Assembly: GCA_003152075.1 (NCBI GenBank)
Contig: PLZG01000075.1
Coordinates: forward strand, 1-41,742
Reading direction: 5' to 3'
Length of the DNA stretch: 41,742 bases
Source: a candidate division FCPU426 bacterium
GTDB taxonomy: Bacteria > Oederibacteriota > Muellerivitia > Muellerivitales > Muellerivitaceae
Shown one piece after another: positions 2,401 to 29,881 of this stretch. Position numbers and translations under genes: made by a program. The notes beneath the pieces are model-generated. The model did no database searches. It worked only from the letters and a program-made list of their open reading frames with translations, and had not been told where the DNA came from. Every line of letters begins with the position of its first letter. Positions within the stretch are counted from its first letter, which is position 1.

Positions 2401-3039
2401 TCAGGGGTCTCCGGTTCTCCGGTGATGGGCAAGGTTGGGTTGTACTACCGACTCAACCTTGGGCTGAAGCAAATCGATGAATTTTTTGGGCCGGGGGCAG
2501 TTCAAAAGAACAAGGGGTCCACTAGGGCTTCCGGTGTCGATTTCAATGTGGCCATAATTGAAAATAAGTCCAATCGGGCTTTGCTGAAAACCCACCCTTC
2601 GGACAGACCCATAAGGAACATTAGTGACTTGGTGAAGTGGAAACCAACTTACTAGGTTTATATTGTTGGCGGTTAGTTTGTAGCGGGTCCCCAATTGCCA
2701 TAGATTATGGTAAACTGCGGCGACAATGGCGATGGTTTTCAATCCGCGTTCCCCCCAATAAAGCCCCAAATCGGCCCAGGTCGTGGGTAGACCCCGCAGA
2801 TTTTTGAAAACTTCCAGCAAGTAGGGTGGAAACCAAACGAAGAACCGGTGATTGAGATCGCAGAAAGCATAAGCCAACAAGTAAGCGAACAAAACCATCC
2901 ACCAGGAGGGCATGGCTTTAAATATTACGTCAAGTGAAAAAGGAGTCTTGTGGGCATCCGAGGGCGAGGATGTTTTCCCGTGAGCTGACGGTTTTAGGTG
3001 TTCCGGCCGTTTAAAAAAATTTAAGATGCGGGTCTTCAT
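2401..3039 (-). CDS. membrane-anchored bacterial PH-domain protein (DUF304/bPH2-like)
   Basis: The 212-residue protein has a charged N-terminus, hydrophobic stretches at about 44-60 and 98-112, and a C-terminal bacterial PH-like domain at about 118-192. That domain shows the pattern LTANNINL, LHQVTNVPYGSVRRV and SPIGLIFNYGHIEI, typical of YdbT/DUF304 proteins. These membrane proteins have mostly unassigned roles. ATG at 3039 is preceded by a strong AAGGAAGG site; a longer frame to 3117 lacks one. It lies downstream of the secreted glycosidase gene with a 122-nt gap and may be a separate unit. No specific function can be assigned. Confidence 0.8.
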   Translation of the reverse strand: MKTRILNFFKRPEHLKPSAHGKTSSPSDAHKTPFSLDVIFKAMPSWWMVLFAYLLAYAFCDLNHRFFVWFPPYLLEVFKNLRGLPTTWADLGLYWGERGLKTIAIVAAVYHNLWQLGTRYKLTANNINLVSWFPLHQVTNVPYGSVRRVGFQQSPIGLIFNYGHIEIDTGSPSGPLVLLNCPRPKKFIDLLQPKVESVVQPNLAHHRRTGDP

Positions 3040-3161
3040 GAATCCTTCCTTTGCAACAAACTTAACTTTATCAAAAAATTCAACAATCAGTGGACTAAAA
3101 AATACAATTTGAACCAAACATTAGTTTATTCATTCTTTTGCGCTCTGTTTAACTTCCCGAA

Positions 3162-6100
3162 CTATTCTAAGTTTTCTGATTTAAGAAAAACCTTAATTAC
3201 ACCGATGGAGTCCTCGAGGGCCAATTCGCTTCGGACAATATATCCTTTCCTTATTTTTTGAAGAATGAGGGCCGATTGTTCCGGATGTTTCATGAGTGTT
3301 AAAGGTGATTTCCATTGTTTTCCTTGTGGAATCAATCCGTGACTGACTTGTCCCACTGCCTGGTTAGAGGCAAAGCCTAATATTTGGGCGAGAGGTTGGT
3401 TTTGACCCGATTCCACCTTGTACATCCACAGGTGATACACATTTACTTCATCGTTCGTTTTCGAAACAAGTCTTAAAAGTGTCTGGTTTGAAGTGATCAT
3501 TACTTCTGGAATATCAAAATAAAGTGCCAGAAAACGCCGGGTGGTCCCGTCGGGCTGGGTACGAACCCCCACCTGTTGCCATTTACCATCTGCCTGCACC
3601 TGGAGGGCCATGCCTTGTATGTTGTGGCCAGTGTTTACCCTTAACCAAAGACGGTGTTTATAACCCGGCTCCGTTTTGATCGCGAATTGATAGAAGCCCG
3701 TAAAACCACGGCCCTCGTCCCGAATCATTTTTTTTTCGTTCTGACTATCGGGCAGATTCTGCGTATCCTCGAAAGTTTCACCGGTAAAAGTAACAGCGTG
3801 AGATAATTCCGAACCGGGATTATTCACGTCCACTTCGTCCAGGTACTTTTGGTTGGATTGCATTTTTGTCGAGTCGGACACAACCGCCTCATCTGACAGG
3901 GTTCCTTCCTCCCAGCCGCCCGTCAAGTTAATCAACCACTCGGGCAGCACTTCTCGATTTGGATAAGAGGGTCCAATGAATAAGCACCCTCCCTGTTCAA
4001 CGAACTTTTTAACGGCTTGGCCCAATTTAGGATAGGCCCAATAGTAAACCGGTTTGAAATCGTGTTTACCCGAGGAAAATGCCCCTCTTCCAAAAACGGC
4101 CACCTTCGTTTTGGGGATTCCGCGTCCATCCAACAGCCCTTGAGCGATATCCTCCGGAGAAACCGGCAGGTCCATGTCGAGAAAGCTCACGGACGAAGAT
4201 ACTTTTTGCATAAGTTTCAACTCGCTTCTGCCAATTTTTAGAAAATTATCGGGCGATGTGTGTTTGTGTTTGTTGAAAACTCCCGAAGGAGAAGTGATTA
4301 GTAATAGGTCCGCGTTGGAAACGCCATAGGGCTCCGGCTTGAAAACTTGAGGCTTCGGAGGATTAAGTTCGGTGTCTGAAAGAAGAGATCCTTCCCATAT
4401 GGTAAAAAGCACGTCCTTTTCCGCGTCTAAATCAAAACTACACCGAGCCTGACGTCCACCTGAGCCGGTCAAGATTTTGTCCCACTCCACCTGTCCATCG
4501 GTCTCAATTTTGGAGAAAGGCCGATTGTGGGCCCAAAAATCAATCGTAACGTGAAGAGGTTGAGGTTTTTCTAAATGGAGGGAGATGGTCCATTCCTGGG
4601 GCCCTTTCCGATTCATGGAAAGAGTGATCTGAGCAGTTCCTACAGCGAGACGTTTAGCAGATAACTCCTTCATGTCTTCGGGAAGATATGGTGCAAACAC
4701 GACGCGGTTGTTTCCAGCATCGGGCGCGAAACCGGTCAAGTACTCGAGGATGGATTCTGTGTTCAAGCCCCCTTCCCAGGGCCGGACTCGGCCGCTCGTA
4801 CCAAGACCCCAGGCGGGGGGGTTCCATGGCCGGTAATTGACATCGTACATTTCCGCAAACTCCCCGGAAGGGGTGACGGTTTTTAAAACAGCCCGGTAAG
4901 CTTTTTCAGCCCAAGCCATGCGGGCTTTGCAGAGGGAAACCAACAACTGGCCTGGGTTCATTCCCACAAAGAAATCCATGGCTGGAGTCGTTTTCCAAAA
5001 GCCGTCTTCCCTTCCCAGCCAGGGATATGCATTTTTAATTGAATCAATCGCTCTTTTAGAGGTAAAGGGGGTTTCCCCTAAAGGATCCAAATCGTTGCGG
5101 GCGTAACCACACCAGAATGGGTTTATCAGGATATTGGCGAAAGGGGCGTTGTAAAGGGGGCCCAGGAGGGATTGAGCCGGAGCCCAATAACCTGCTTTCT
5201 CGTTCCAGTAGGTTTCCTCCGCTTTGGCGCGTACACGATCCGCCAGTTTTTTTATCGAAGTGACATCGCGGTCCATTTCCAAATACTTTCCCAAATAAAC
5301 CAAGTGGTCCGCGGCTGAGACAATATCGAAACTAGAATCAGTTGCGAATGCATAAGTGGAGAGATCGTAGTTGGGGAAAGGACATTGGTCGAAGCAGCGG
5401 GACTCGATACACCAAAGATAGGTTTCGTCACGGTGAAAGAAATATTTATCATCCTGATTGACCTGGCCGGTGATGCACCGCTTGAGATAGTTCCAACGAG
5501 CGCGGATAAGTTCCAGGTCCCCAGTAGTCAAGTAATACCACCAGTGTTGGAGCACGATCCAATTGGGAGTTTCGGCGTGTTCAACGTGGATGGTGGAAAG
5601 GTCCTTCAACCGGTAATTGAGGGGATAGTCCACCCTAATGCTGTTGGGAAGGGATCCCATTGTGGACCCTACCCCGTAGAAAAAATCCATAGCCCTTTTT
5701 GCTTCTTGGGGATGCCCGGTTTTCAGGAACCATCGAATGGGCCCATTGTTGTCCCGGATCCAGGTGTAGGAATAGCCGACTAATGGCGAGAACCCACCTG
5801 TATGGGACTGCTCGCATTTGAAGATCATTGACTCGATCTCAAAAAGATCGCAAGTTTTTTGGTCTCCAGAAAACTCGGTTCCCCGCTCGAACCATTTTTG
5901 ATAATAATCGCGGGTTTGGTCCAAAAGTTGTAGCGCGCCGGTTTTTCTGATTTCAGTGGCCACGGCGTTGTTTTCCCGGGTGCTGTCGGATGAGATAAGA
6001 AAAAAACCCATCCAAGCTTCCCCACCGATCCGCAGGGCGGGGAGACTGTAATGGACTTCGTTGTCCCATATTCTGACTTTTCTTGAATTGAAGGCTCCCA

Positions 6101-6827
6101 GCCTCCAAATCGTCCGTTTCTTGGCCCTCGTGGACTTCTGGTCGATCAGAATATCCTTCCCCTCTGCTTTTTCCTTAAACTTAACGTTCCATGCGGATTG
6201 GATTTTAAAGGCGATATCCAGATCGCTTTCTGTTTTGTCCCCGGTATTTAAAACATGGACCAAACGCACCAGGACCGGCGGATTGTTCCATTCGTTCTCC
6301 CCGGTCACGGTGACAGGGGCAAAATCGTAGCTTTCCACAGTGAGTCCTTTGCCTTCGGCATGGACCTTGACTACGCCAGAACGCCGGAGCCATCCGATTT
6401 GCTGTTTGGGCATCCAGGCCGAAAGTCCCGCCCGGGTAACCTCCATCCGCGCGCCCCCTAAGTCAGGCTCCTGGTAGGAAGCCCCATACAAGTTGCTCCA
6501 ATTCCAGAGGGGACTGGAAAGTCCTATGAGAGCGAAGGCCCGTCCGTTTCCGATGCAATAAGCTCCAGTTTCATTTGGTTTAACTTGCTGGCGGTCTAAG
6601 TCGAAAGTTTCATTCCACGAATAAAGGTCAGTTAACCAAGTCCTGTCTTTCAGGAGGTCGGCACCGGCTTTTTCCAAGTCCCGATTGATGACCGGGGTTG
6701 GGCTTGGCCTAGGCGTTTCCATCTTTGTTAATTCGGGAGTGGGTTCTTGAGGCATTCCCTTTGACGGAATAATTCCATGGAGAGCACAAATGAAAACAAA
6801 CGGAAGAAGAATTTTTTGAACTTTCAT
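3162..6827 (-). CDS. secreted six-hairpin glycosidase-like protein with C-terminal GATase1-like and beta-sandwich regions
   Basis: The 1221-residue protein starts with a signal peptide (hydrophobic about 5-20) and a Pro/Thr linker (27-46). Residues about 80-300 look like an all-beta N-terminal domain. Residues about 325-700 look like an (alpha/alpha)6 barrel, with YTWIRDNNGPIRWFL (353-367) resembling the substrate-binding W-RD segment of glucoamylase-type enzymes and PWEGG (683-687) near its end. A beta region follows. Residues about 838-970 resemble a Rossmann/class I glutamine amidotransferase-like fold (LLLITSPSG, VAVFGRG, KFVEQGGCLFIGPSYP). Residues about 1035-1140 look like a carbohydrate-binding-type beta-sandwich. 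The product is probably a periplasmic or exported glycan hydrolase of unknown substrate; I cannot name a GH family. It overlaps the upstream membrane gene by 4 nt (ATGA), with an AAGGA ribosome site. Confidence 0.72.
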   Translation of the reverse strand: MKVQKILLPFVFICALHGIIPSKGMPQEPTPELTKMETPRPSPTPVINRDLEKAGADLLKDRTWLTDLYSWNETFDLDRQQVKPNETGAYCIGNGRAFALIGLSSPLWNWSNLYGASYQEPDLGGARMEVTRAGLSAWMPKQQIGWLRRSGVVKVHAEGKGLTVESYDFAPVTVTGENEWNNPPVLVRLVHVLNTGDKTESDLDIAFKIQSAWNVKFKEKAEGKDILIDQKSTRAKKRTIWRLGAFNSRKVRIWDNEVHYSLPALRIGGEAWMGFFLISSDSTRENNAVATEIRKTGALQLLDQTRDYYQKWFERGTEFSGDQKTCDLFEIESMIFKCEQSHTGGFSPLVGYSYTWIRDNNGPIRWFLKTGHPQEAKRAMDFFYGVGSTMGSLPNSIRVDYPLNYRLKDLSTIHVEHAETPNWIVLQHWWYYLTTGDLELIRARWNYLKRCITGQVNQDDKYFFHRDETYLWCIESRCFDQCPFPNYDLSTYAFATDSSFDIVSAADHLVYLGKYLEMDRDVTSIKKLADRVRAKAEETYWNEKAGYWAPAQSLLGPLYNAPFANILINPFWCGYARNDLDPLGETPFTSKRAIDSIKNAYPWLGREDGFWKTTPAMDFFVGMNPGQLLVSLCKARMAWAEKAYRAVLKTVTPSGEFAEMYDVNYRPWNPPAWGLGTSGRVRPWEGGLNTESILEYLTGFAPDAGNNRVVFAPYLPEDMKELSAKRLAVGTAQITLSMNRKGPQEWTISLHLEKPQPLHVTIDFWAHNRPFSKIETDGQVEWDKILTGSGGRQARCSFDLDAEKDVLFTIWEGSLLSDTELNPPKPQVFKPEPYGVSNADLLLITSPSGVFNKHKHTSPDNFLKIGRSELKLMQKVSSSVSFLDMDLPVSPEDIAQGLLDGRGIPKTKVAVFGRGAFSSGKHDFKPVYYWAYPKLGQAVKKFVEQGGCLFIGPSYPNREVLPEWLINLTGGWEEGTLSDEAVVSDSTKMQSNQKYLDEVDVNNPGSELSHAVTFTGETFEDTQNLPDSQNEKKMIRDEGRGFTGFYQFAIKTEPGYKHRLWLRVNTGHNIQGMALQVQADGKWQQVGVRTQPDGTTRRFLALYFDIPEVMITSNQTLLRLVSKTNDEVNVYHLWMYKVESGQNQPLAQILGFASNQAVGQVSHGLIPQGKQWKSPLTLMKHPEQSALILQKIRKGYIVRSELALEDSIGVIKVFLKSENLE

Positions 6828-8599
6828 TTTTTCCTTCCCCTTGTTTTCAAAAGGTTTAAATCGACGGGAGCGGGGGTAAGACGGATTTCTTTTTCCGTCG
6901 GAGTGGGGCTCGGGGAGGGCTTTACAATCTCGTAAAAGTAAGTTCTTCCGTGGTATTCCACGGGAGTTAGTTCGTACTGGTGAAAGAAAGTCAACAATCG
7001 TCCTTTGGGAAGGTCCATCATTCGTTCAAGCTTTTCCCGCCAAGCGTCATTTTCTTCAATCGATTCGGACAGGGCCCAAACTTTTCGGTGGTGCTTCCAG
7101 ATCGTCTGGAAAACATCTGAAAGATCCTGCCAGGGATCCGGCGGGGGTACCGGGGCGGCTAAATTCATTACGGTTTTTTTGCCGAGTTTTATTTCCTTTT
7201 CCTCTTTTTCCATCTTCCTATACTTTTTAAGAAACGCGTGGAGGCTCAAATAATTCCTTTTTTGATAACGATCAAGATAAAAGGGGATGGTATTGATTCC
7301 GTCCAGAATTAACAGGTCATCTACCCGAACTTTCCAATCGAGAGCCCCCAGAAGGGCGCTATGCCCATAAGTGATTTTTGCCGTCGGGGCAAGGGCGTTA
7401 TTGATGGCCTTCTGGAAATTGTAAAAAAAAAGCAGGATTACCAGACCGCCCCAAATGGCAATAATGAGTCCCCGATTGGAATAATGCAGGATTGGATTTT
7501 TCCACCGGCTTGACAAATCAGAGATGATGATTCCCATGAGAATCCAACAGGGCACGGTGGAAGATACCCAAAATTCAATATTCCAAGGTTCCCACCAGAT
7601 GAAAAACGGAACAAAAGCTAAGAGCCAGAAGAAACCAACCCACAGGGTTTGTCTATAGTTATTCCAGTAGGATTTCAAACGCATAAGCAATAAACCGAGA
7701 AGCGAGAAAACGGCGTATTGAAAGATGTTTTTTGCCGCCAGGAAAGTGAATGGAGCGGCCATCGTCTTGTAGGGCAAGGTATCTAGAAGGAAAGCCTGGA
7801 CCATGGCAAATTTTCCCCGTTCAATTCCCGCCTGTTGAAGATGCCCGCCCCATTCTTTGACATGAAAGTAGGAAAAAACCCACCAAACCCAGGACTCATA
7901 AGTTTTCCGGTAGCAGACAAATCGGCCGATGAAACCATAAGCCGCCAGAACTCCGATCGTAAGCGCGGCAAGGTAAAAAAGGCTGATCTTGAGGCGGTCC
8001 CAGGGTGTTTTTTCTGGAAGACACCAAATTCCCCCTAAAAAGGCAGGAACGAGCAGGAGATTTGTTTGGTGGCCAGTAACAGCGAAAGCATGGGCGAATC
8101 CAATGACCCAACCGAAAACCGGAGGCGCTTTTTTCAGATAAGTCAGCGCGTACCAAGCCAGAAGTGGTGTGACGGTGGCAAAGATACGAACACCGGGCGA
8201 GGTGGAAAAATACCAATAGCTGTAGGTAAAGGAAAGGCCCGCCGCTGAGAGAAAGGAAACCAGGCGATCATTGGTTACCCTCACCATGAGATGGAAGGCA
8301 ATCAGGACACCAAGGGCGCCCGTAAGAATGTCGAAAAACTGCAATGCGACTAAGCCATCCCAGGTAGCCCCATTGGCCCGACCCCACAGGAAGATCAATC
8401 GGCCAAAGAAGGTATAAAAAAGATGGTGAGGATGGAAGTAATCCCACAATGGCCTATGATCCTGTTCAATGTGGGAGGCAAAAACCATTCCATCATAGGT
8501 GTAATTCACAGGAAGGTTAGAAAGATAGACGCAAAAGCAAAATGTCCAAAGGCCGACCCCGAGCAAAAGGGTGGTGGCAGACTTGTTCCACTCACGCAT
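6824..8599 (-). CDS. polytopic membrane protein, GT-C glycosyltransferase-like
   Basis: The 591-residue protein has about ten hydrophobic segments over residues 8-400 and a soluble C-terminal part of about 190 residues ending in a Pro/Ser/Thr-rich tail. An aromatic loop after the first helix contains YDGMVFASHIEQ and FHPHHLFYTFFGRL. An acidic residue and His cluster in the first large loop is where GT-C (PMT/ArnT-like) enzymes place their catalytic acid, so transfer of a sugar from a lipid carrier is a plausible inference. It is not demonstrated. The gene is translationally coupled to the secreted glycosidase gene. ATG at 8599 has AAGGA about 10 nt upstream. It could instead be a substrate channel or a member of an uncharacterised membrane family. 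Confidence 0.62.
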   Translation of the reverse strand: MREWNKSATTLLLGVGLWTFCFCVYLSNLPVNYTYDGMVFASHIEQDHRPLWDYFHPHHLFYTFFGRLIFLWGRANGATWDGLVALQFFDILTGALGVLIAFHLMVRVTNDRLVSFLSAAGLSFTYSYWYFSTSPGVRIFATVTPLLAWYALTYLKKAPPVFGWVIGFAHAFAVTGHQTNLLLVPAFLGGIWCLPEKTPWDRLKISLFYLAALTIGVLAAYGFIGRFVCYRKTYESWVWWVFSYFHVKEWGGHLQQAGIERGKFAMVQAFLLDTLPYKTMAAPFTFLAAKNIFQYAVFSLLGLLLMRLKSYWNNYRQTLWVGFFWLLAFVPFFIWWEPWNIEFWVSSTVPCWILMGIIISDLSSRWKNPILHYSNRGLIIAIWGGLVILLFFYNFQKAINNALAPTAKITYGHSALLGALDWKVRVDDLLILDGINTIPFYLDRYQKRNYLSLHAFLKKYRKMEKEEKEIKLGKKTVMNLAAPVPPPDPWQDLSDVFQTIWKHHRKVWALSESIEENDAWREKLERMMDLPKGRLLTFFHQYELTPVEYHGRTYFYEIVKPSPSPTPTEKEIRLTPAPVDLNLLKTRGRKK

Positions 8600-16411: not shown

Positions 16412-17734
16412 ATGGCCCGATTGCGCGAAACTTTAAAAAGTTTATCCATTTTCTCCGCAATGCTGTTGTTTTTGCTTCTGATTTCCTCAGGCTGTGATGT
16501 CACCATCCCTTATTTTGGTAAGCGTTCACTTCCCTTTTTCAAAAAAATAGTGCCTCCACCAACTCCAACCCCAGTACCTGCTTTGCCTCCTACCGGAAAT
16601 CCGGCTACTTTCGCGGTTTCTAGTCCTACGGTTTCAATATCGGTTTCTCCCAAAACTCCCTCCAACCGTCCAACGCTTGAAGTTTCGACCGAAATGTCCA
16701 TTAGTAAACCAAAGACTCTGCCTACTGTTACTTTCACCCCAACGTCTACGGCCACACCCATGGAAGTTGAAAAGATCGCTTATACCAGTATTGAAAAGGG
16801 AAAATCCACCCTTTGGACCATGAATACGGATGGTACGGGAAGAACAAGATTAACCGCCGTAGGAACAAATAGTTGGTATCCCCTTTGGTCGCCCAACGGC
16901 AAAGTTTTGGCGTTTCTTTCAGATATGACAGAAGGAAAAATAAATCTCTATACCATTAAAAAGGGCACCACCGAAGCTATCCAAGTAACCTCATTTTCGG
17001 ATATGACACTTGAGAATGCCAAAGGTTTAAAAGCCCCCTTTTGCTGGTCCCCTCGAAGTGATGAAATCTCCTTTACCTACCATAGTCAGGTTTGGAAAGT
17101 GGATTTATCTACTTTAATCCTTCAAACCCTGGCGGATCTTGATCCCCATTATCTGGTTTCGGGTATCGAATGGGCCCCGCATAGGGATAATAAGTACATC
17201 GCTTTTTTAGTTAAGAAAGGCATTAATTTCTTTAGTTTGAACCTGGTAAATCCCCGATTATTAGATCAATTGAAATTAGTCGATTCTTCAACTCCCCTTG
17301 CGGATATTTCTTGGTCGCCTGACGCTAGGAAAATTGCTTATATTTCAAACAAGGAATCTATTTATACAGCCTCCGCAGAAACTTCATTACCCAAACAAAT
17401 TATTTGGGGTGCAAGCCCTGAATTAGGGCCCTTGCTGTGCTATTCGCCCATTGAATCCACCACACCCCAACTTATGTTATTAGCAAAGAAAAAATTAACG
17501 GATAGTGGTTATTGCGTAGCCTTAGTGGACAAGCTTTCTTCTGGCGACCAGGACTCGGGAACTTTGAAATATCTTACCGAACCAGGAGTGGAAAACGCAA
17601 TTTGGGCCCCCGACGGGTCCAAAATAGCTTATATTCTGGATGGTGAGCTTTGGATTATGGAATCTTCAACCGGAAAAAATAAAGTTAGGATTGCCGCGAC
17701 TGGTATTCAATCACCCAATTGGTCAAAAAAGTGA
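16412..17734 (+). CDS. lipoprotein with TolB/PD40-type beta-propeller
   Basis: The 440-residue protein starts with a hydrophobic segment ending LLLISSGC (Cys28), a probable lipidation site. A long Pro/Thr/Ser linker (about 48-115) follows, then repeated WD40-like PD40 blades: LWTMNTDGTGRTRLT, PLWSPNGKVLAFLSD, FCWSPRSDEISF, ISWSPDARKIAYIS and AIWAPDGSKIAYILD. Such propellers usually bind partner proteins in the periplasm, as TolB does. This is not TolB itself, because it is lipidated and lacks the TolB N-terminal domain. AGGA abuts the ATG at 16412, so the TTG at 16421 may be the real start. It pairs with the next gene, 7 nt downstream. Confidence 0.78.
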   Translation: MARLRETLKSLSIFSAMLLFLLLISSGCDVTIPYFGKRSLPFFKKIVPPPTPTPVPALPPTGNPATFAVSSPTVSISVSPKTPSNRPTLEVSTEMSISKPKTLPTVTFTPTSTATPMEVEKIAYTSIEKGKSTLWTMNTDGTGRTRLTAVGTNSWYPLWSPNGKVLAFLSDMTEGKINLYTIKKGTTEAIQVTSFSDMTLENAKGLKAPFCWSPRSDEISFTYHSQVWKVDLSTLILQTLADLDPHYLVSGIEWAPHRDNKYIAFLVKKGINFFSLNLVNPRLLDQLKLVDSSTPLADISWSPDARKIAYISNKESIYTASAETSLPKQIIWGASPELGPLLCYSPIESTTPQLMLLAKKKLTDSGYCVALVDKLSSGDQDSGTLKYLTEPGVENAIWAPDGSKIAYILDGELWIMESSTGKNKVRIAATGIQSPNWSKK

Positions 17735-17741
17735 GGAATAA

Positions 17742-18788
17742 TTGAGCTTGTTCCCCAAAATTATTAAAACAGGGTTATGTCTTATTTTAATGCTCTTCCT
17801 TGGGTTGTTGGCCACAACGGGTTGCAAAAGGAAGGAAGCTCCCCCGCCTCCACCTGCGCCTACCCCTATTCCAGTCATTCCGCCCGGGAGCATTGTTTTC
17901 ATCCAGAGGGGCCATTTGGCCAGGCTGGATTTGGAGTCCTCGCAAATAACTCCCTTAACAAGTGGAAAAAGCACCGAATGGTTTCCAACCTGTTCCCCCG
18001 CGGGCGATCAAGTAATTTATTGGTCTAACGCGGAAGGCGGCTACAATCTTTGGAAAATTAATTTAGACGGTTCGAACAGGGTACAAATTACTTTTGAACA
18101 AGATAACGGCCTTCAAACCGGTGACCAGAATCTTCTGGTCAATGCCGCCGCTTCTTGGTCCGCCGACGGGAAACGCATTTATTATGTAATTGGCGGAGAT
18201 TTATGGGTCATGGATTCGGATGGATTTAATCCAGAAACGGTTTTACTTGGGCATAAGGCCCTTTGCCCCTTCGTTTCCGAGGATGGGAAAATCCTTTATT
18301 TCATCTCGGATATGGACGATGCTGTTAAAAACCTTTGGGCCTTGACGCTTTCAGATAAGACTGCGAAGAAATTAACGGAATATACCGATTGGAATGTTGG
18401 TTCCCCCTCCATGTCCTCAGATGGAAAGAAAATAATTTTCAATTTGTACCGCGCTAACACGTCCCAAGTTTATACCGTGTCTCCCGATGGTTCTGACGCC
18501 CTTAACCTCACCACCAACAACCGAAGTTTATGCCCAAGATTCGCAATGAAAGACAGGAAGATCGTGTATTGCGCTTATGGCATAGGTGAGGATGTCGCAC
18601 TGAATATGTTTATCATGAACAACAATGGAACGGAAATTAAACCCTTAACGACCGAAGGGGGTTCATCCCCAAGCTGGGCACCGGCGAGGATTTTATCGAT
18701 AGCGCCTATTAGCTCTCCCGTCACATCAACTACCCCTGCCCCGTCCTTGCCAACCCCGGTTGGTTCAAGCTCCAACGCGAGCAAATAA
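17742..18788 (+). CDS. lipoprotein with TolB/PD40-type beta-propeller (second of a pair)
   Basis: The 348-residue protein has a signal segment ending GLLATTGC (Cys28) and a proline run (PPPPPAPTP). PD40-type blades follow: LWKINLDGSNRVQIT, ASWSADGKRIYYV, LWVMDSDGFNPET, PSMSSDGKKIIF and VYTVSPDGSDALNLT. A Ser/Thr/Pro tail closes it. The start is TTG at 17742 with AGGA 5-6 nt upstream. It shares architecture with the preceding gene, so tandem duplication with divergence is likely, and the two probably form one transcript. Its stop codon abuts that of convergent glyA with no intervening base and no recognisable terminator. Confidence 0.76.
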   Translation: MSLFPKIIKTGLCLILMLFLGLLATTGCKRKEAPPPPPAPTPIPVIPPGSIVFIQRGHLARLDLESSQITPLTSGKSTEWFPTCSPAGDQVIYWSNAEGGYNLWKINLDGSNRVQITFEQDNGLQTGDQNLLVNAAASWSADGKRIYYVIGGDLWVMDSDGFNPETVLLGHKALCPFVSEDGKILYFISDMDDAVKNLWALTLSDKTAKKLTEYTDWNVGSPSMSSDGKKIIFNLYRANTSQVYTVSPDGSDALNLTTNNRSLCPRFAMKDRKIVYCAYGIGEDVALNMFIMNNNGTEIKPLTTEGGSSPSWAPARILSIAPISSPVTSTTPAPSLPTPVGSSSNASK

Positions 18789-20126: not shown

Positions 20127-20447
20127 TTAAAACTGGATAAATTTCCCTTTTTTGAGATTCAACTTTTTAACAGTTCCGGCCCGGAGTTCCAAACTATGGA
20201 GACATCCAACGGGTCCCCTAAGAACCCTCCAAGAACCAACCGCTGGAATGATTTTCAGTATTTTATATTCTTTGTCCAGGAAAACAATGTCCGGAGCCAA
20301 ATAAGTGAAAAGCGTATGGAGTGAGCGGCAATGGGGGAAGCAGAGTCCACCCCAACCCTTTGGCCATTCCCGCTTCCCCATCAAGCCCCAAAAACGCGGG
20401 AAAAAAGTTACCGCAAATTGAATATTTGAAAGTTTAATTTGATTCAC
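20127..20447 (-). CDS. DUF192 family protein (COG1430-like)
   Basis: The 106-residue protein matches the DUF192 pattern: RFWGLMGKREWPKGWGGLCF, CRSLHTLFTYLAPDIVFLD, KILKIIPAVGSWR and SLELRAG. Function is unknown for the family. This copy lacks the usual signal sequence and reads as a short cytosolic form, and the usual HTM motif is HTLF here. The GTG start at 20447 overlaps the tadC stop by 4 nt (GTGA), so it is translationally coupled to tadC. DUF192 genes near tad loci have been seen elsewhere to my knowledge, but I cannot verify a link. Confidence 0.85.
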   Translation of the reverse strand: MNQIKLSNIQFAVTFFPRFWGLMGKREWPKGWGGLCFPHCRSLHTLFTYLAPDIVFLDKEYKILKIIPAVGSWRVLRGPVGCLHSLELRAGTVKKLNLKKGKFIQF

Positions 20448-21343
20448 TGGTTGAAAAATTGGAGAAGGATGGGCCCGAAAATGATTAAAAAGGTCACCGG
20501 CATAATGAAGAGGATCAGAGGAATCAGCATTTTAACCGGCATTTCCTGGACAGCTTTTTCAGCTCTTTGCGTCTGTTTATCCCGCATAGTCAGGGAAAGC
20601 TGCCGCAGTGTCATGGAGATACCCGTTCCAAACCTTTCGGCATGGATAAGACTGGTGGTAAAAAGAGAGAAATCCGTTAGGTCGAGCCGTGAACTGGTGG
20701 ATTCAAGGGCGCTTTTCCGGCTGGAACCGCTTCTGGTTTGTTCCAGGAGACCTGCGAATTCATCGTGAAGCGGCCCAGCTTTGGCATTTTTAAGGTATTG
20801 ATCCATCGCCTGCTCCAAGGACAAGCCAGCTTCGGAGCAAAGAGATAGTATTTCCAAGGCATTAGGAAGCTCTCGCAATAACATTTTCTCCCGCCCCAAA
20901 GCCTTCTCTTGAAGCCAAATTAATGGCAGCCCCGCCCCAACGAAAAAGGCGATGATGGAAATCTCGAGGTTTTCGGATAAAAGGATAAAAAAAGATGCGG
21001 CAAAAACGGATATTAGGATTTGGAAACCCAAAATTTGAACTGGCTTAATTTCCGTCCGGTTCATGCGCAGAAGTTGTTTTGAAAGATACCCTACGTACCT
21101 CTCGAACCATCTATGATTTAAAAAAACAGATGAATTGTTTTCGATAAATGAAAGTAATGTCCGAAAGGGAAGAGGTTTTCTTCCCGAGGGACCCATGCCG
21201 TTTCCAACAATGGGGGCTGTCATCAAAAATTTCAACCGGACGTTTTGTTGGTATTGAGAGAACCTTTCCAGAGCTTCCGATACAATTATAAAAGCGAACC
21301 ATCCGATTGAGAGGGAGGATAGGCAAAGAAGAATAGTGGTCAT
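20444..21343 (-). CDS. tadC: type II secretion F-domain protein, TadC-like
   Basis: The 299-residue inner-membrane protein has hydrophobic segments at about 5-25, 105-122, 128-145 and 275-297. A cytoplasmic T2SSF domain lies between the latter (LPNALEILSLCSEAGLSLEQAMDQYL, FGTGISMTLRQLSLTMR). TadB and TadC form the platform of Flp/Tad-type pili. It starts 1 nt after the tadB stop and is followed by a coupled DUF192 gene. No TadA ATPase, secretin, prepilin or prepilin peptidase is in this window, so the remaining machinery must be elsewhere or the pair has a reduced role. Confidence 0.85.
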   Translation of the reverse strand: MTTILLCLSSLSIGWFAFIIVSEALERFSQYQQNVRLKFLMTAPIVGNGMGPSGRKPLPFRTLLSFIENNSSVFLNHRWFERYVGYLSKQLLRMNRTEIKPVQILGFQILISVFAASFFILLSENLEISIIAFFVGAGLPLIWLQEKALGREKMLLRELPNALEILSLCSEAGLSLEQAMDQYLKNAKAGPLHDEFAGLLEQTRSGSSRKSALESTSSRLDLTDFSLFTTSLIHAERFGTGISMTLRQLSLTMRDKQTQRAEKAVQEMPVKMLIPLILFIMPVTFLIIFGPILLQFFNQ

Positions 21344-22189
21344 CTAAACCTCCAACCGAAGAAGCTGGCGGATCCATGCAAACCCAATCGTTTCCAGAAT
21401 AGCGGCCAGCAAGAGTATGGCCCAGCCAATTTTCTCGGTGAAAAGGGGGATAATTAGGGTTGGGTCCATCAAAAAAAACACAAAACCCAGAAAAAAAGGA
21501 AGTAACCCAATCATGAGACCGGATAGCCTAGCCTGGGCGGTCATGGCCTCCATCTTTCTCAACAATCGATTTTTTTCTTCCATTCCCTCCATCAAAACTT
21601 GCAGTAAGTGGGTCAAATTTGCTCCCGTTTGCCGAGATATTTTATAGGATTCCAGGAATTGGTGGAATTCTGAAAAATCAGGGAATCTTTCCGCCATTTT
21701 TGAAATCGCTTGCTCGGCTGAGGACCCCAAATCCATTTCTGCGCAAACCAAAAATAATTCATCTTTTAAGGGCGAAGGGCTTTCGTGGGATAAATACTCC
21801 AGCACTTGTGGAACCGTTTGGCCTGTTTTAAGGGCTTGAACGGCCATCCCTAAGGCCTGGGGAAAAACTGAGCTCATTTTTCCTTGTCTTTTTTTCAATT
21901 CACGTTCGTGCATCCAAGTCGGCCCCTTCTGATAAACCAGACAACCCATTAGAAAAAGTACAAGTAAAAAAAAACCTAGGAAAAAATCCCCAAAGAGGGT
22001 TACCAATAGGCAAAGTAAAATTCCCGCAAGCAATATTTTCTGGGAGGAATTCATTACCAAAGGACCTGAGGAAGGTTTTGTTAAAGGGGAAATTTTTATT
22101 TTCGGCAAAATGGTCCTAGTAACAGACCAACCCAAAAATCCAGCAGAAAAGGTCCCAAGAATTATCGCCAAATGGAGATTCGTGTTCAT
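21344..22189 (-). CDS. tadB: type II secretion F-domain protein, TadB-like
   Basis: The 281-residue protein has N-terminal hydrophobic segments (about 8-24, 52-90), a cytoplasmic T2SSF domain and two C-terminal helices (about 222-270). The domain shows FPQALGMAVQALKTGQTVPQVLEYL, FLVCAEMDLG and SRQTGANLTHLLQVL. These features fit TadB, the partner of TadC in the Tad/Flp platform. The ATG overlaps the upstream lipoprotein stop by 4 nt (ATGA). The coupled lipoprotein, tadB and tadC suggest one envelope assembly. The lipoprotein may act like the TPR-containing TadD, although its lipid anchor and repeat content are generic. Confidence 0.85.
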   Translation of the reverse strand: MNTNLHLAIILGTFSAGFLGWSVTRTILPKIKISPLTKPSSGPLVMNSSQKILLAGILLCLLVTLFGDFFLGFFLLVLFLMGCLVYQKGPTWMHERELKKRQGKMSSVFPQALGMAVQALKTGQTVPQVLEYLSHESPSPLKDELFLVCAEMDLGSSAEQAISKMAERFPDFSEFHQFLESYKISRQTGANLTHLLQVLMEGMEEKNRLLRKMEAMTAQARLSGLMIGLLPFFLGFVFFLMDPTLIIPLFTEKIGWAILLLAAILETIGFAWIRQLLRLEV

Positions 22190-25792: not shown

Positions 25793-26370
25793 TAGACTCC
25801 AACTTTTAAAAAAATGTTCCAAGTTTCTAATAGGCGCGGATGAATTATCATTCTCTTTTCAAAGAGAAACGTGATCGTCATCGAGGCTTTCATTGAAACG
25901 GCCTTAGTTAAGTTTTTTTTTGCCGTTAATCGGACCTGATCCACACCTTGAAATTTTCTACCCGGCTCAATAAAATCCGCGACGAATATCAATTGAGCAA
26001 GGGAACCCATACGTGGATGCCCAAGTGTGTGGCACCTTATCGCCTCCAAAACTCCCAAGTCCCGAACACTCCATTTGTTAAGGGCAATTGACGCGGCAAC
26101 ATGGGGATGCCAAAGTCCCGGCATTTCCCTTTCCTCGTCGTCTAACCGAAAGCGACTCTTCCGTAACCAGGATTTCATTTCTGATTTAGGCAATTCCTTA
26201 GCGCAATCATGAAGCCAGGCGGCCAAAACGGCATTTGTAACCGACAACCCGTGATGAATGGCCAAGAGTTTTGCGGTTTTGGCCACTCCCGAGATATGCT
26301 TAAAACGCCGCGGGCTGACTTGTGTTTTAACCCAATTTTGAATCGATTGAATATTTCTCTCGGCCTTCAC
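25792..26370 (-). CDS. yqeK: HD-domain symmetrical Ap4A hydrolase, YqeK type
   Basis: YqeK-type HD hydrolases split diadenosine tetraphosphate into two ADP, limiting an alarmone made by aminoacyl-tRNA synthetases. The 192-residue protein has H25 (RRFKHISGVA), the H54-D55 doublet (AAWLHDCAKEL), WHPHVAA (H88 and H90), RCHTLGHP (H114) and VADFIEPGR (D132). This is the expected metal ligand set. The GTG start at 26370 overlaps the upstream permease stop by 4 nt (GTGA). It lies in the same transcript as argS, so synthetase and Ap4A clearance may be co-expressed. The usual nadD and rsfS neighbours are absent. Confidence 0.9.
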   Translation of the reverse strand: MKAERNIQSIQNWVKTQVSPRRFKHISGVAKTAKLLAIHHGLSVTNAVLAAWLHDCAKELPKSEMKSWLRKSRFRLDDEEREMPGLWHPHVAASIALNKWSVRDLGVLEAIRCHTLGHPRMGSLAQLIFVADFIEPGRKFQGVDQVRLTAKKNLTKAVSMKASMTITFLFEKRMIIHPRLLETWNIFLKVGV

Positions 26371-27296
26371 CCGTAAATACCCGTATAGGCAATACCACGA
26401 ATGATGGTTCTTTGGAAAAAAATCAAAAGAATTATTGAGGGAATTGTGCTAAGAACCAAAGCGGCCATCACCACGTTCCAAGGCTCGCCTGTATCGATCA
26501 GTCTTTGGACCCCAAGGACAAGTGGGTAATAATCCGGATTGTTAAGAACAATGAGGGGCCAAAAAAAGCTGTTCCAAGTCGTCACGAAAGAAAAAATAGC
26601 GAGAATCGACATAATGGGTTTTGTCATTGGCAGGATAAAGCGGAAAAAAATCCGCGTCTCGGTACAACTGTCAATACGAGCGGCGTAAATAATTTCATTC
26701 GGGATGGAATCGTAAAAATCCTTTAACACGACGATGCTGAAAGCGCTAAAAACCCCGGGCAAAATTAAGGCCCAATAGGTATTGATCAAGTTCACGTTAG
26801 CCATTCCCGGCCCGAATGGAAAGAATTTCATTATGAGATAAAGGGGGATGACCAGAACCTCGAAAGGAACCATCAGGCTTGTCATGAATAAAAGCAGTAT
26901 CCCTCCGGCAAAGCGGACCCGAAGTTTTGTTAAAGAATAGGCCGCCATGGAGGAAATCAACAACTGCCCGAGAACCACGCAAGCGCACATAAACAAGCTG
27001 TTAAGGAAATACCTTCCGAACGACACCAAACGGAGGGCTTCCCCGTAGTTTGAGAAACTGAAATCTTTTGGGATGTAGTTTTGGGGCACCGAATATATCT
27101 CGCTGGGTGTTTTGAAGGATCCCAGGATCATCCAAACAATTGGCGCAATGGTCAACAGCCCTCCCAAGGTCAGCAAAAATGTACCCAGCACCAGGGCTAT
27201 TTTGACCGATTTTTTCTTCCGGTCCTGATGGGAAAATAAGCCTCGGGGACCAGCTTTGATTTTTTTTTGTTGGAGACTTTCCCCGAAAATTTCCAT
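26367..27296 (-). CDS. carbohydrate ABC transporter permease, MalG type
   Basis: The 309-residue inner-membrane permease has about six transmembrane helices. It carries the EAA coupling loop (EIIYAARIDSCTETRIFFRFILP), where the usual E-A-A---G reads Y-A-A---S with the LP end conserved. The MalG-type N-terminal FKTPSEIYSVPQNYIP and C-terminal FFQRTIIRGIAYTGIYG ending are typical of CUT1 sugar importers. ATG at 27296 has AAAGGAAG 6 nt upstream. It follows the MalF-type gene by 12 nt. No ATPase gene is in the operon, so a shared MsmX-like ATPase encoded elsewhere is expected. Confidence 0.92.
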   Translation of the reverse strand: MEIFGESLQQKKIKAGPRGLFSHQDRKKKSVKIALVLGTFLLTLGGLLTIAPIVWMILGSFKTPSEIYSVPQNYIPKDFSFSNYGEALRLVSFGRYFLNSLFMCACVVLGQLLISSMAAYSLTKLRVRFAGGILLLFMTSLMVPFEVLVIPLYLIMKFFPFGPGMANVNLINTYWALILPGVFSAFSIVVLKDFYDSIPNEIIYAARIDSCTETRIFFRFILPMTKPIMSILAIFSFVTTWNSFFWPLIVLNNPDYYPLVLGVQRLIDTGEPWNVVMAALVLSTIPSIILLIFFQRTIIRGIAYTGIYG

Positions 27297-27308
27297 AAAG
27301 CTTCCTTT

Positions 27309-28574
27309 CTATCGGGACGTTTGTTTCATCTGTAAAAAACGGGCCATGGTGAAAATAAATAGTATCCCGAACATCAACATCGCCATGGCGGAGGCGTAAC
27401 CTAAATCCATGGTTCCAAAAGCGGTTTTATAAATGTAGGTGCCTATTACCTCTGTGGCGTGCATGGGCCCCCCTTTCGTCATGACGAAAACCTCCGTGAA
27501 AATTTGGAAAGCGGTCAAAACCTGGATGATCGATAAAATCCATAAGATCGGCATCAAATGGGGAACGGTAATGTTAAAAGCCTTTTTGCGGATCCCGGCT
27601 CCGTCCAGCTCCGCCGCCTCATAGAGTTCCTCCGGAAGGTTCTGAAGTGCGGCGAAATAAATAAGCATAAACCAACCGGTGTTTTTCCAAACGAACATCA
27701 CCGCGATGGAAATGAGTGCCCACCGTTGGTCGGTAAGCCAACCAACTGGAGGAAGCGAGAGCAAACCCAGGATGGAATTCAAAACCCCGAAACCCTCATC
27801 AAATATCCACTTCCACAAATTGGCGGCAGGAATGGCTGGGATTACAAACGGAAGTAGGTACAGGACCTTGAACAGCCCCTTACCTCGGCTTATTTCATTG
27901 AGTACAATTGCCAGCAAAATAGGTGGCCAAAGTCCCAGTGCCAAGGAAAAAAGAGTGAAAAAGAGAGCGTTGACCACTGTTTGCCAAAAAAGCGAATCCT
28001 GAAAAGCCCGCTGGTAATTATCCCAACCCACCGGAATACTATTTCCCAAAGGGCTGTAATGGGTCAAGCTGATTTGAAAACCTTGGATCATCGGATAAAG
28101 GTAGAAAAGCCCAAAAAAACCGAAAGCAGGAAACAGAAACCAGAAAGCCTGCGCCCGGTAACTCAAGGGGTGCCAAAAGGCCTTGCCGGGTCTGATGGCT
28201 TTATCGGGTTCGATGGGTTTGTCGAAGATCGAGGCGGTTTTACGCCTGTCCCGGACTTTCCCAGAATCCTGGCGCTTGCGGATAAGGGCTTTTGCCCGGT
28301 CCTCGACGGATTCGGTGGATTGTCCCTGAAGAAAGGGGACGTTTTCCAAAGATTCGGATGATTTTTTGGGACCGGAATCATGGGAGGGTTCCACCGAACC
28401 TCCCCCCAGCTGTTTCATCAATTCCAACCGGGTCTTCTCGTCGTCTGGTGTGGGTACATCCTCGATCTCCAAATCAAGGTCGCCTTCTTTGGAAGACATT
28501 TCCTTGGGAAGCGGAACGGGCTTTTTCTTTTCCTCGTCATCATCGTAAATGGAAAATGGTTTGTAATCCGTCAT
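27309..28574 (-). CDS. carbohydrate ABC transporter permease, MalF type, with 140-residue charged N-terminal extension
   Basis: The 421-residue permease has six transmembrane helices starting near residue 142 and a canonical EAA loop (ELYEAAELDGAGIRKKAFNITVPHLMP). It pairs with the MalG-type permease. The first 140 residues are unusual: hydrophilic, highly charged and low in hydrophobics (DDDEEKKKPVPLPK, EDVPTPDDEKTRLELMKQL, RKRQDSGKVRDRRK). They are probably disordered and cytoplasmic. Typical MalF/UgpA proteins begin with only 10-30 residues before the first helix. ATG at 28574 overlaps the binding-protein stop by 4 nt (ATGA). Confidence 0.9.
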   Translation of the reverse strand: MTDYKPFSIYDDDEEKKKPVPLPKEMSSKEGDLDLEIEDVPTPDDEKTRLELMKQLGGGSVEPSHDSGPKKSSESLENVPFLQGQSTESVEDRAKALIRKRQDSGKVRDRRKTASIFDKPIEPDKAIRPGKAFWHPLSYRAQAFWFLFPAFGFFGLFYLYPMIQGFQISLTHYSPLGNSIPVGWDNYQRAFQDSLFWQTVVNALFFTLFSLALGLWPPILLAIVLNEISRGKGLFKVLYLLPFVIPAIPAANLWKWIFDEGFGVLNSILGLLSLPPVGWLTDQRWALISIAVMFVWKNTGWFMLIYFAALQNLPEELYEAAELDGAGIRKKAFNITVPHLMPILWILSIIQVLTAFQIFTEVFVMTKGGPMHATEVIGTYIYKTAFGTMDLGYASAMAMLMFGILFIFTMARFLQMKQTSR

Positions 28575-29881
28575 CGATCCACCTTCACTTTAGAAAAGAT
28601 GTCCCTATCCGCCTCTTTGGCGTAACTTAATAATAATTGCTGGGGATCCGCGTCTGGGTCTAAAAATATTTCTTGAAGGGGGGACTCGTCCAACATATCC
28701 CTCACCTCGGGCCAGCCGTTGACATGGGGTTCCACCCGGGCTGTTTCAAGGGCGTCCTTGACCATTTTGAATTCATCCTGATTGGCGATGTTGGTCGCCG
28801 AACTGAACGCGCCCGGATAGACGAACATTTTGAGCTCGTGCATTCTCAGCCATTTGCGCAGTTGGTTAGCAGGCGAAAGGTCGAACTCGACCCATTTCCA
28901 AGCCGCGTTTTTTTTCTCTTCCGAAGTGGTCGCGTTGATGACATAGACGTCTCCTCCCAAATGAGCCGCCTTTCCGGCGGGTCCCGCGGGAAGGGGGGCG
29001 ATCCCAAAGGATTGGGGATCGATTTTGTACCGGGTGATGAGGGCTGGAAGTTGGTTTTCCGTCCCAAATGTCATGGCGATCTTACCCAGGGCGAAGAGGT
29101 GGAGAATCTCATTTTCAGGCATGAGGACATCGGGTTGCAGAACCTTATATTTCCAGCACAAGTCTTTCCAAAAACGCAAGGCTTGAACGCCTGGTGGTTC
29201 ATCAAAAGCCGCGTGGACTTTGTCGTTTTCCGTGCGGGTCATTTCCCCGCCCGCTTGCCACACAAAATCCTGGAAATACCAGGTCTTAGGTACCAATCCC
29301 AAACCATATTGGCCTTTTTCACGGTGGGTTAAAGTCTTGGCCGTGTTGGCCAACTCATCCCAGGTCGTCGGGGGAGTCTCCGGATTCAATCCCGCAGCCG
29401 TGAAAAGATCCTTTCGATATAGCAGGAAAAGAAAGTAAGTATCCGCGGGGACTCCGTAAAAGTGGGTTCCCACCTTGGTACTTTCCAACAATACGGGTTT
29501 TATGAAATCCCTTTGGCTCCAGTTCTGGATGTAAGTATCGACCGGGTCCAGGAAACCCAAGTTGGCCAAGGTTTGTATGGCACCCACCCAAACCTTGACC
29601 AAATCAGGACCCTTCCCCCCGGCCATGACCGTGATAAATTCCTCAGGCTGATATTCCCTTTCAACACCTTCGACTTTGATATTCGGATTCTGGGTTTCAA
29701 ACTCCTTTACCGTTTCTTCCCAGATTTGACGGTCAAGGGGAAGGGACTTGGGAGGCACGTTCCAGAGGGTTAAATGTGTGACCGTCTTATCTTGAATATC
29801 TTTTTCGTTTTGACGCATCAAAAATTGGCTTAATCCAAAGGCCAACAAGGCGAAAAGAAATATGTAAAAAAGGTTTTTCAT
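28571..29881 (-). CDS. carbohydrate ABC transporter substrate-binding protein (family 1), membrane-anchored
   Basis: The 436-residue protein has an N-terminal hydrophobic segment (about 4-20) and a family 1 solute-binding fold (LTLWNVPP, FETQNPNIKVEGVE, VMAGGKGPDLVKVWVG, LYRKDLFTAAGLNPETPPTTWDEL, GKIAMTFGTENQ). It presents an oligosaccharide or sugar to the two permeases encoded next. No lipobox cysteine follows the hydrophobic segment and no clear signal cleavage site is seen, so it may stay anchored by an uncleaved signal. The substrate is unknown. It heads the 29.9-18.8 kb operon. Confidence 0.9.
   Translation of the reverse strand: MKNLFYIFLFALLAFGLSQFLMRQNEKDIQDKTVTHLTLWNVPPKSLPLDRQIWEETVKEFETQNPNIKVEGVEREYQPEEFITVMAGGKGPDLVKVWVGAIQTLANLGFLDPVDTYIQNWSQRDFIKPVLLESTKVGTHFYGVPADTYFLFLLYRKDLFTAAGLNPETPPTTWDELANTAKTLTHREKGQYGLGLVPKTWYFQDFVWQAGGEMTRTENDKVHAAFDEPPGVQALRFWKDLCWKYKVLQPDVLMPENEILHLFALGKIAMTFGTENQLPALITRYKIDPQSFGIAPLPAGPAGKAAHLGGDVYVINATTSEEKKNAAWKWVEFDLSPANQLRKWLRMHELKMFVYPGAFSSATNIANQDEFKMVKDALETARVEPHVNGWPEVRDMLDESPLQEIFLDPDADPQQLLLSYAKEADRDIFSKVKVDR

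Follow-up and report, generated by a model that had tools for sequence, protein, structure and literature searches.

In cyclic β-1,2-glucan synthase (Cgs/NdvB), a membrane glycosyltransferase is combined with a six-hairpin enzyme by which the length of the glycan is controlled: its GT84 domain elongates the glucan and its GH94 domain sets the length. As portrayed in the relevant sections of PMC10901819, Cgs is a single chain with cytoplasmic soluble domains, uses UDP-glucose as donor and contains a Rossmann-fold-like subdomain within its phosphorylase part. A second related arrangement is found in Caldicellulosiruptor bescii, where Cbes_1864, a PMT-like GT-C gene of family GT39, is located near genes for large secreted glycosidases, celA among them (PMC6151902, in part). 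Here we describe a locus comparable to both, in a candidate division FCPU426 bacterium. The locus is situated on the reverse strand of a stretch of 41,742 nucleotides (contig PLZG01000075.1, positions 1 to 41,742, assembly GCA_003152075.1; hereafter the window), and it codes, in this order, for a GT-C-type membrane glycosyltransferase of 591 residues, a secreted six-hairpin protein of 1221 residues (hereafter the hydrolase) and a small membrane protein that contains a bacterial PH domain (bPH_2).

Unlike Cgs, the window system consists of two chains, its glycosyltransferase is of the GT-C type, and its six-hairpin protein begins with a signal-peptide-like segment and carries a carboxylate at a position occupied by Leu in the aligned GH94 enzyme. 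Both proteins belong to known superfamilies. Neither the gene unit nor the hydrolase family was found in Pfam or NCBIfam, nor in any paper among the literature matches listed; the hydrolase family is thus called new relative to Pfam and NCBIfam only. We tentatively propose that the locus is a cell-envelope unit for building and trimming, in which the GT-C enzyme would add a lipid-linked sugar and the hydrolase would trim the glycan; we favor this interpretation, while considering it somewhat more likely to be wrong than right.

Conservation of the three-gene locus

The GT-C gene (6824..8599) and the hydrolase gene (3162..6827) overlap by the tetranucleotide ATGA (6824..6827), which combines the stop codon of the former with the start codon of the latter, as a preliminary description of the window had reported. 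The reading frames overlap at nine of the ten loci that carry the pair. At six of these the overlap measures four nucleotides (ATGA in the window, G002, G005, G006 and G007; GTGA in G003), and at the others 11 (G004), 29 (G010) and 1 (G030). In G018 the genes are separated by a gap of 10 nucleotides, provided that its TTG start is correct. This kind of junction is thus kept across the pair loci. Because nine further genomes carry homologues with open frames and without internal stops, both open reading frames (ORFs) of the window are real genes. The fixed stoichiometry that the same description had taken the overlap to suggest follows only from the presumed translational coupling.

The window belongs to a genome of 4.10 Mb in 114 contigs (G000), and 45 genomes of its phylum were compared. 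In single-sequence searches the hydrolase was detected in 10 of 59 genomes, all within the phylum, and the GT-C protein in 12 of the 45 phylum genomes, i.e., the ten hydrolase genomes and, as weak matches, G011 and G017. In all ten pair genomes, which represent three families of the one phylum, the two genes are neighbors in the same order; contig breaks fall inside the hydrolase gene of G003, G007 and G030, and there too the beginning of this gene remains adjacent to the GT-C gene. In the resulting co-occurrence table for the 45 genomes, from which G027 (see below) was left out, both genes are present in 10, the hydrolase alone in none, a weak GT-C match alone in two and neither in 33 (Fisher p 2e-8, in a test that ignores relatedness). 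The genome survey suggested in the preliminary description therefore reveals the pair in ten related genomes, and the homologues are far from never co-occurring. In a tree of 14 hydrolases, the five paired ones form a single group (support 99/98), and the nearest unpaired sequences are those of G346 and G060.

The third gene (2401..3117, with ATG at 3039 as the likely true start) follows that of the hydrolase. Its product matches PF03703 with an E-value of 1.7e-7 (31.8 bits, compared to a cut-off of 22), and the G010 homologue reaches 51.1 bits; most of the homologous matches start near residue 27. The protein occurs in eight of the 45 phylum genomes, all eight of which bear the pair, and it belongs to the GT-C/hydrolase unit.

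Within the window's family, the unit is located upstream of aroG and, in most genomes, after msrB. No msrB was matched in G004, and the upstream flank of the unit differs in G002. The same two flanking genes are retained without the three-gene unit in G001, of the same genus, and in G008, of the same order, where about 75 bases separate msrB from aroG as judged by the matched ends. The G001 interval harbors a secreted-looking ORF of 464 residues (L098:1433-2827) with no Pfam or PDB match. In G010 the outer neighbors have changed, yet the genes for the GT-C protein, the hydrolase and the bPH_2 protein remain together.

Enzyme classes and candidate catalytic residues

On its own, the window GT-C protein has no match in Pfam or NCBIfam. 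Its class is assigned because homologues match PMT_2 (PF13231; five of the eight, the best at 1e-6) and because an Asp residue, Asp36 (codon at 8492..8494), is unchanged in all eight homologues and located between the first two predicted transmembrane helices (residues 8-26 and 83-101 by hydropathy). An essential Asp in the corresponding loop is described for GT-C-A enzymes in the pertinent part of PMC12041299, and Asp36 is therefore the candidate catalytic residue. A crude hydropathy scan predicts six to nine helices across the eight homologues and seven in the window member, the C-terminal part, from roughly residue 396 onward, being soluble. Like ArnT, PMT, AftB and TMEM260-like enzymes, the protein thus combines a polytopic build, the loop Asp and a soluble C-terminal part, and it differs from them in lying outside all Pfam and NCBIfam models. 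Among distant relatives in other phyla, two of the four scanned exceed the cut-off for PMT_2 or the TMEM260-like family (PF11028). The 591-residue protein is accordingly classified by homology as a GT-C-type glycosyltransferase, in agreement with the preliminary description, and its probable role is the addition of a sugar on the outside of the cell. In two genomes from outside the phylum, G159 and G296, the gene of a GT-C relative overlaps one for a GT2 glycosyltransferase (L112:483-2799 and L113:2195-4508), an arrangement that would fit the supply of a lipid-linked sugar.

The hydrolase begins with a signal-peptide-like segment (residues 1-24 or so, with a hydrophobic segment at 6-20) and a Pro/Ser/Thr-rich linker (about residues 25-48), which together occupy 6684..6827; residues 21-60 contain 14 Pro, Ser or Thr. 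Searched alone, the window protein has no NCBIfam match and no matching PDB chain, and stays below every family cut-off. Its match to the GH78 α-L-rhamnosidase barrel (PF17389) has an E-value of 0.095 (12.4 bits, compared to a curated cut-off of 24.5), such that the protein is not placed in this family. A profile of eight hydrolase homologues (A1) detects the catalytic domain of about 700 residues in other phyla as well (at an E-value of 1e-5 in 20 of the 384 genomes searched, some of the matches being weak and partial), and reaches 2.4e-104 for the G300 protein (L068). This protein exceeds the Pfam cut-offs for PF22422, PF17389 and PF01204 (MGH1-like, Bac_rhamnosid6H and Trehalase), and L068, L071 and L073 all score above those of six-hairpin families. 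Through these transitive profile matches, an (α/α)6 six-hairpin glycosidase domain is supported for the hydrolase. The barrel region comprises approximately residues 325-715 (4683..5855), much as had been proposed (325-700), and is marked by matches to GH94, GH15, GH37, GH78 and other chains and by invariant columns.

Solved structures are consistent with this assignment. At E 0.5, a profile of ten rows (A7) retrieves 11 distinct PDB sequences, five of which reach 0.01. The best is the GH94 chitobiose phosphorylase 1v7v (1.6e-6); cyclic glucan synthase, matched in its GH94 part, scores 1.8e-4 and a GH15 glucoamylase 0.0066. One match, a dynein chain, is regarded as fortuitous, and the other ten belong to carbohydrate enzymes of the six-hairpin type. 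PDB searches with profiles A1, A2 and A6 yielded nothing convincing. The AlphaFold model of the catalytic domain, built from two sequences, has a predicted local distance difference test (pLDDT) score of 33, and its order of β, helix, all-α and β segments is only suggestive. No homologues were found in plasmids (at E 1e-3) or in viral contigs.

The invariant columns of an alignment of 14 homologues (A3; window numbering, i.e., the A3 number plus 24) include W356, R358, D359, D467, E468, T469, E659, R682, W684 and E685. R358-D359 (5751..5756) are part of a W-x-R-D motif that aligns with the W-S-R-D of the GH15 glucoamylase 1lf6. The DETY motif contains D467-E468 (5424..5429), the candidate general acid, while E659 (4851..4853) is the candidate general base; these roles are our presumption from comparison with GH37 and GH15. 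E685 (4773..4775) belongs to an R-x-W-E motif. Conserved carboxylates of the kind sought in the preliminary description, which are candidates for catalysis, are thus present, D467, E468, E659 and E685 being identical in 14 of 14 sequences, and the 1221-residue protein is probably a secreted enzyme that removes sugars. Compared to the six-hairpin families GH15, GH37, GH63, GH78, GH94, GH95 and MGH1-like, the barrel is homologous, but the hydrolase carries motifs of its own (RDNNGP, DETY and R-x-W-E) and an additional C-terminal extension of about 390 residues.

The fold of this C-terminal region (residues 835-1221; 3165..4325) is unconfirmed. The window protein shows no Pfam match and no convincing PDB match there, and the AlphaFold model of the region alone has a pLDDT of 34. 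Residues 852-944 reappear after the same catalytic domain in G060. The unusual domain combination described earlier is therefore sustained for the barrel, whereas its amidotransferase-like Rossmann region and carbohydrate-binding sandwich are unconfirmed; for the former, no such Pfam match occurs in any of eight C-terminal regions.

Possible roles of the unit

According to the interpretation that we favor, the GT-C enzyme of the inner membrane would take a sugar from a putative polyprenyl-phosphate donor and transfer it, on the outer face, to the presumed acceptor, a growing glycan linked to a lipid or to the surface. The hydrolase would be produced through translational coupling and then exported, and would remove sugars from the non-reducing end of the same glycan by the acid/base mechanism of six-hairpin enzymes, with the invariant D467/E468 as the likely acid and E659 as the likely base. 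Trimming could determine how long the glycan is or how it ends, much as the GH94 domain acts in cyclic β-1,2-glucan synthase, and the bPH_2 protein would probably serve as a membrane accessory. The conservation of the unit, the classes of the enzymes and the invariance of the acids are established here, whereas we infer the shared substrate, the trimming, the location and the direction.

A more specific version regards the unit, so far seen only in this phylum, as a write-and-erase system for a surface glycan, i.e., an exported equivalent of cyclic glucan synthase that is split into separate chains, which is possible but doubtful. Resolved into its parts, such a system would comprise a polyprenyl-phosphate-dependent GT-C enzyme, a new exo-acting six-hairpin glycosidase family that brings a C-terminal platform of its own, and a bPH_2 membrane protein, with coupled translation balancing the building and trimming. 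If true, the proposal would provide a compact, testable case of a bacterium that couples glycan synthesis and trimming through translation, would add a glycosidase family still without a Pfam or NCBIfam model, and would render a role for bPH_2 proteins testable.

Several observations weigh against a dedicated building and trimming unit. The co-occurrence counts are phylogenetically dependent, as seven of the ten pair genomes come from one family. G027, of the same phylum, contains a divergent hydrolase detected by profile and no GT-C match, and GT-C relatives without a hydrolase likewise exist. In other phyla the catalytic domain has solitary homologues with no GT-C gene beside them; the hydrolase fold therefore does not need the GT-C enzyme. 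G030 has no bPH_2 gene, a kinase gene standing straight after that of the hydrolase, and the search for a bPH_2 protein gave no match in G018, where the end of the contig lies shortly beyond the hydrolase gene. Finally, genes for a transporter, a polymerase or outer-membrane export were not seen to accompany the pair, its third conserved partner being the bPH_2 protein. Of the undescribed polysaccharide export or editing system envisaged in the preliminary description, the conserved pairing of a GT-C enzyme with a glycosidase thus stands, the export role is not supported, and editing is plausible only.

Among the unpaired hydrolase relatives, that of G224 is followed by a membrane protein of 869 residues, with about seven helices and a hint of a C-terminal tetratricopeptide repeat (L074:6760-12909). 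This protein falls outside the GT-C profile and is possibly a second kind of partner.

According to the main alternative explanation, which we consider rather unlikely, the GT-C enzyme acts as a protein O-glycosyltransferase: it would attach sugars to the coupled hydrolase, at its Pro/Thr/Ser-rich N-terminal linker or at other sites, and thereby stabilize it after secretion. In C. bescii, deletion of the GT39 gene close to celA abolishes exoprotein glycosylation and renders CelA unstable, and the targets there are cellulases with long Thr/Pro linkers, as far as the relevant portion of PMC6151902 describes them. The matches of the GT-C relatives to protein O-mannosyltransferase families (PMT_2 and TMEM260-like) would be in accord with such a role, as would the Pro/Ser/Thr-rich stretch that follows the signal peptide in the window hydrolase and in the other homologues of its family. 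By eye, however, the alignment reveals no PTP-type linker in the pair-bearing G010 and G018, although other glycosylation sites could be used; a crude count of Pro, Ser and Thr in residues 21-60 (12 in G010 and 9 in G018, compared to 8-16 elsewhere) gives no clear separation. Moreover, Pro-rich stretches likewise stand at the start of other proteins of the window that look secreted (16412-17734 and 17742-18788). If this explanation were true, glycosylation of enzymes as in C. bescii would be extended to a new gene pair.

It is unlikely that the hydrolase scavenges glycans from outside, e.g., those containing rhamnose, and that the GT-C gene shares the operon by chance, with an unrelated role. 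The α-L-rhamnosidase barrel is the most frequent weak Pfam match, and genes for an FGGY kinase and an L-rhamnose isomerase (RhaA) follow that of the hydrolase in G010 and G030 (L040:10681-13621 and L042:3315-6000). RhaA is present, however, in only four of 17 genomes searched, being absent from G018 and from all seven pair genomes of the window's family, and it occurs in G011 and G016, both of which are without the hydrolase. The tight coupling and joint absence of the genes also argue against unrelated roles. Given that the window's family has no RhaA, rhamnose specificity was rejected as an explanation of general validity; it fits G010 and G030 only.

That the six-hairpin protein is a phosphorylase or a non-catalytic glycan-binding partner is very unlikely: its best solved relatives by profile are indeed GH94 chains, which are not known to possess a general base, but E659 is invariant, as is the carboxylate at position 685, which a low-scoring segment aligns with a Leu of the GH94 chain (PW-E in the hydrolase, PW-L in GH94).

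Other genes in the window

Elsewhere in the window, two adjacent genes with T2SSF domains are located at 20444-22189, which perhaps belong to Tad-type machinery for pili or secretion. An ABC importer set is encoded at 26367-29881; it comprises two permeases (BPD_transp_1) and an SBP_bac_1-type solute-binding protein.

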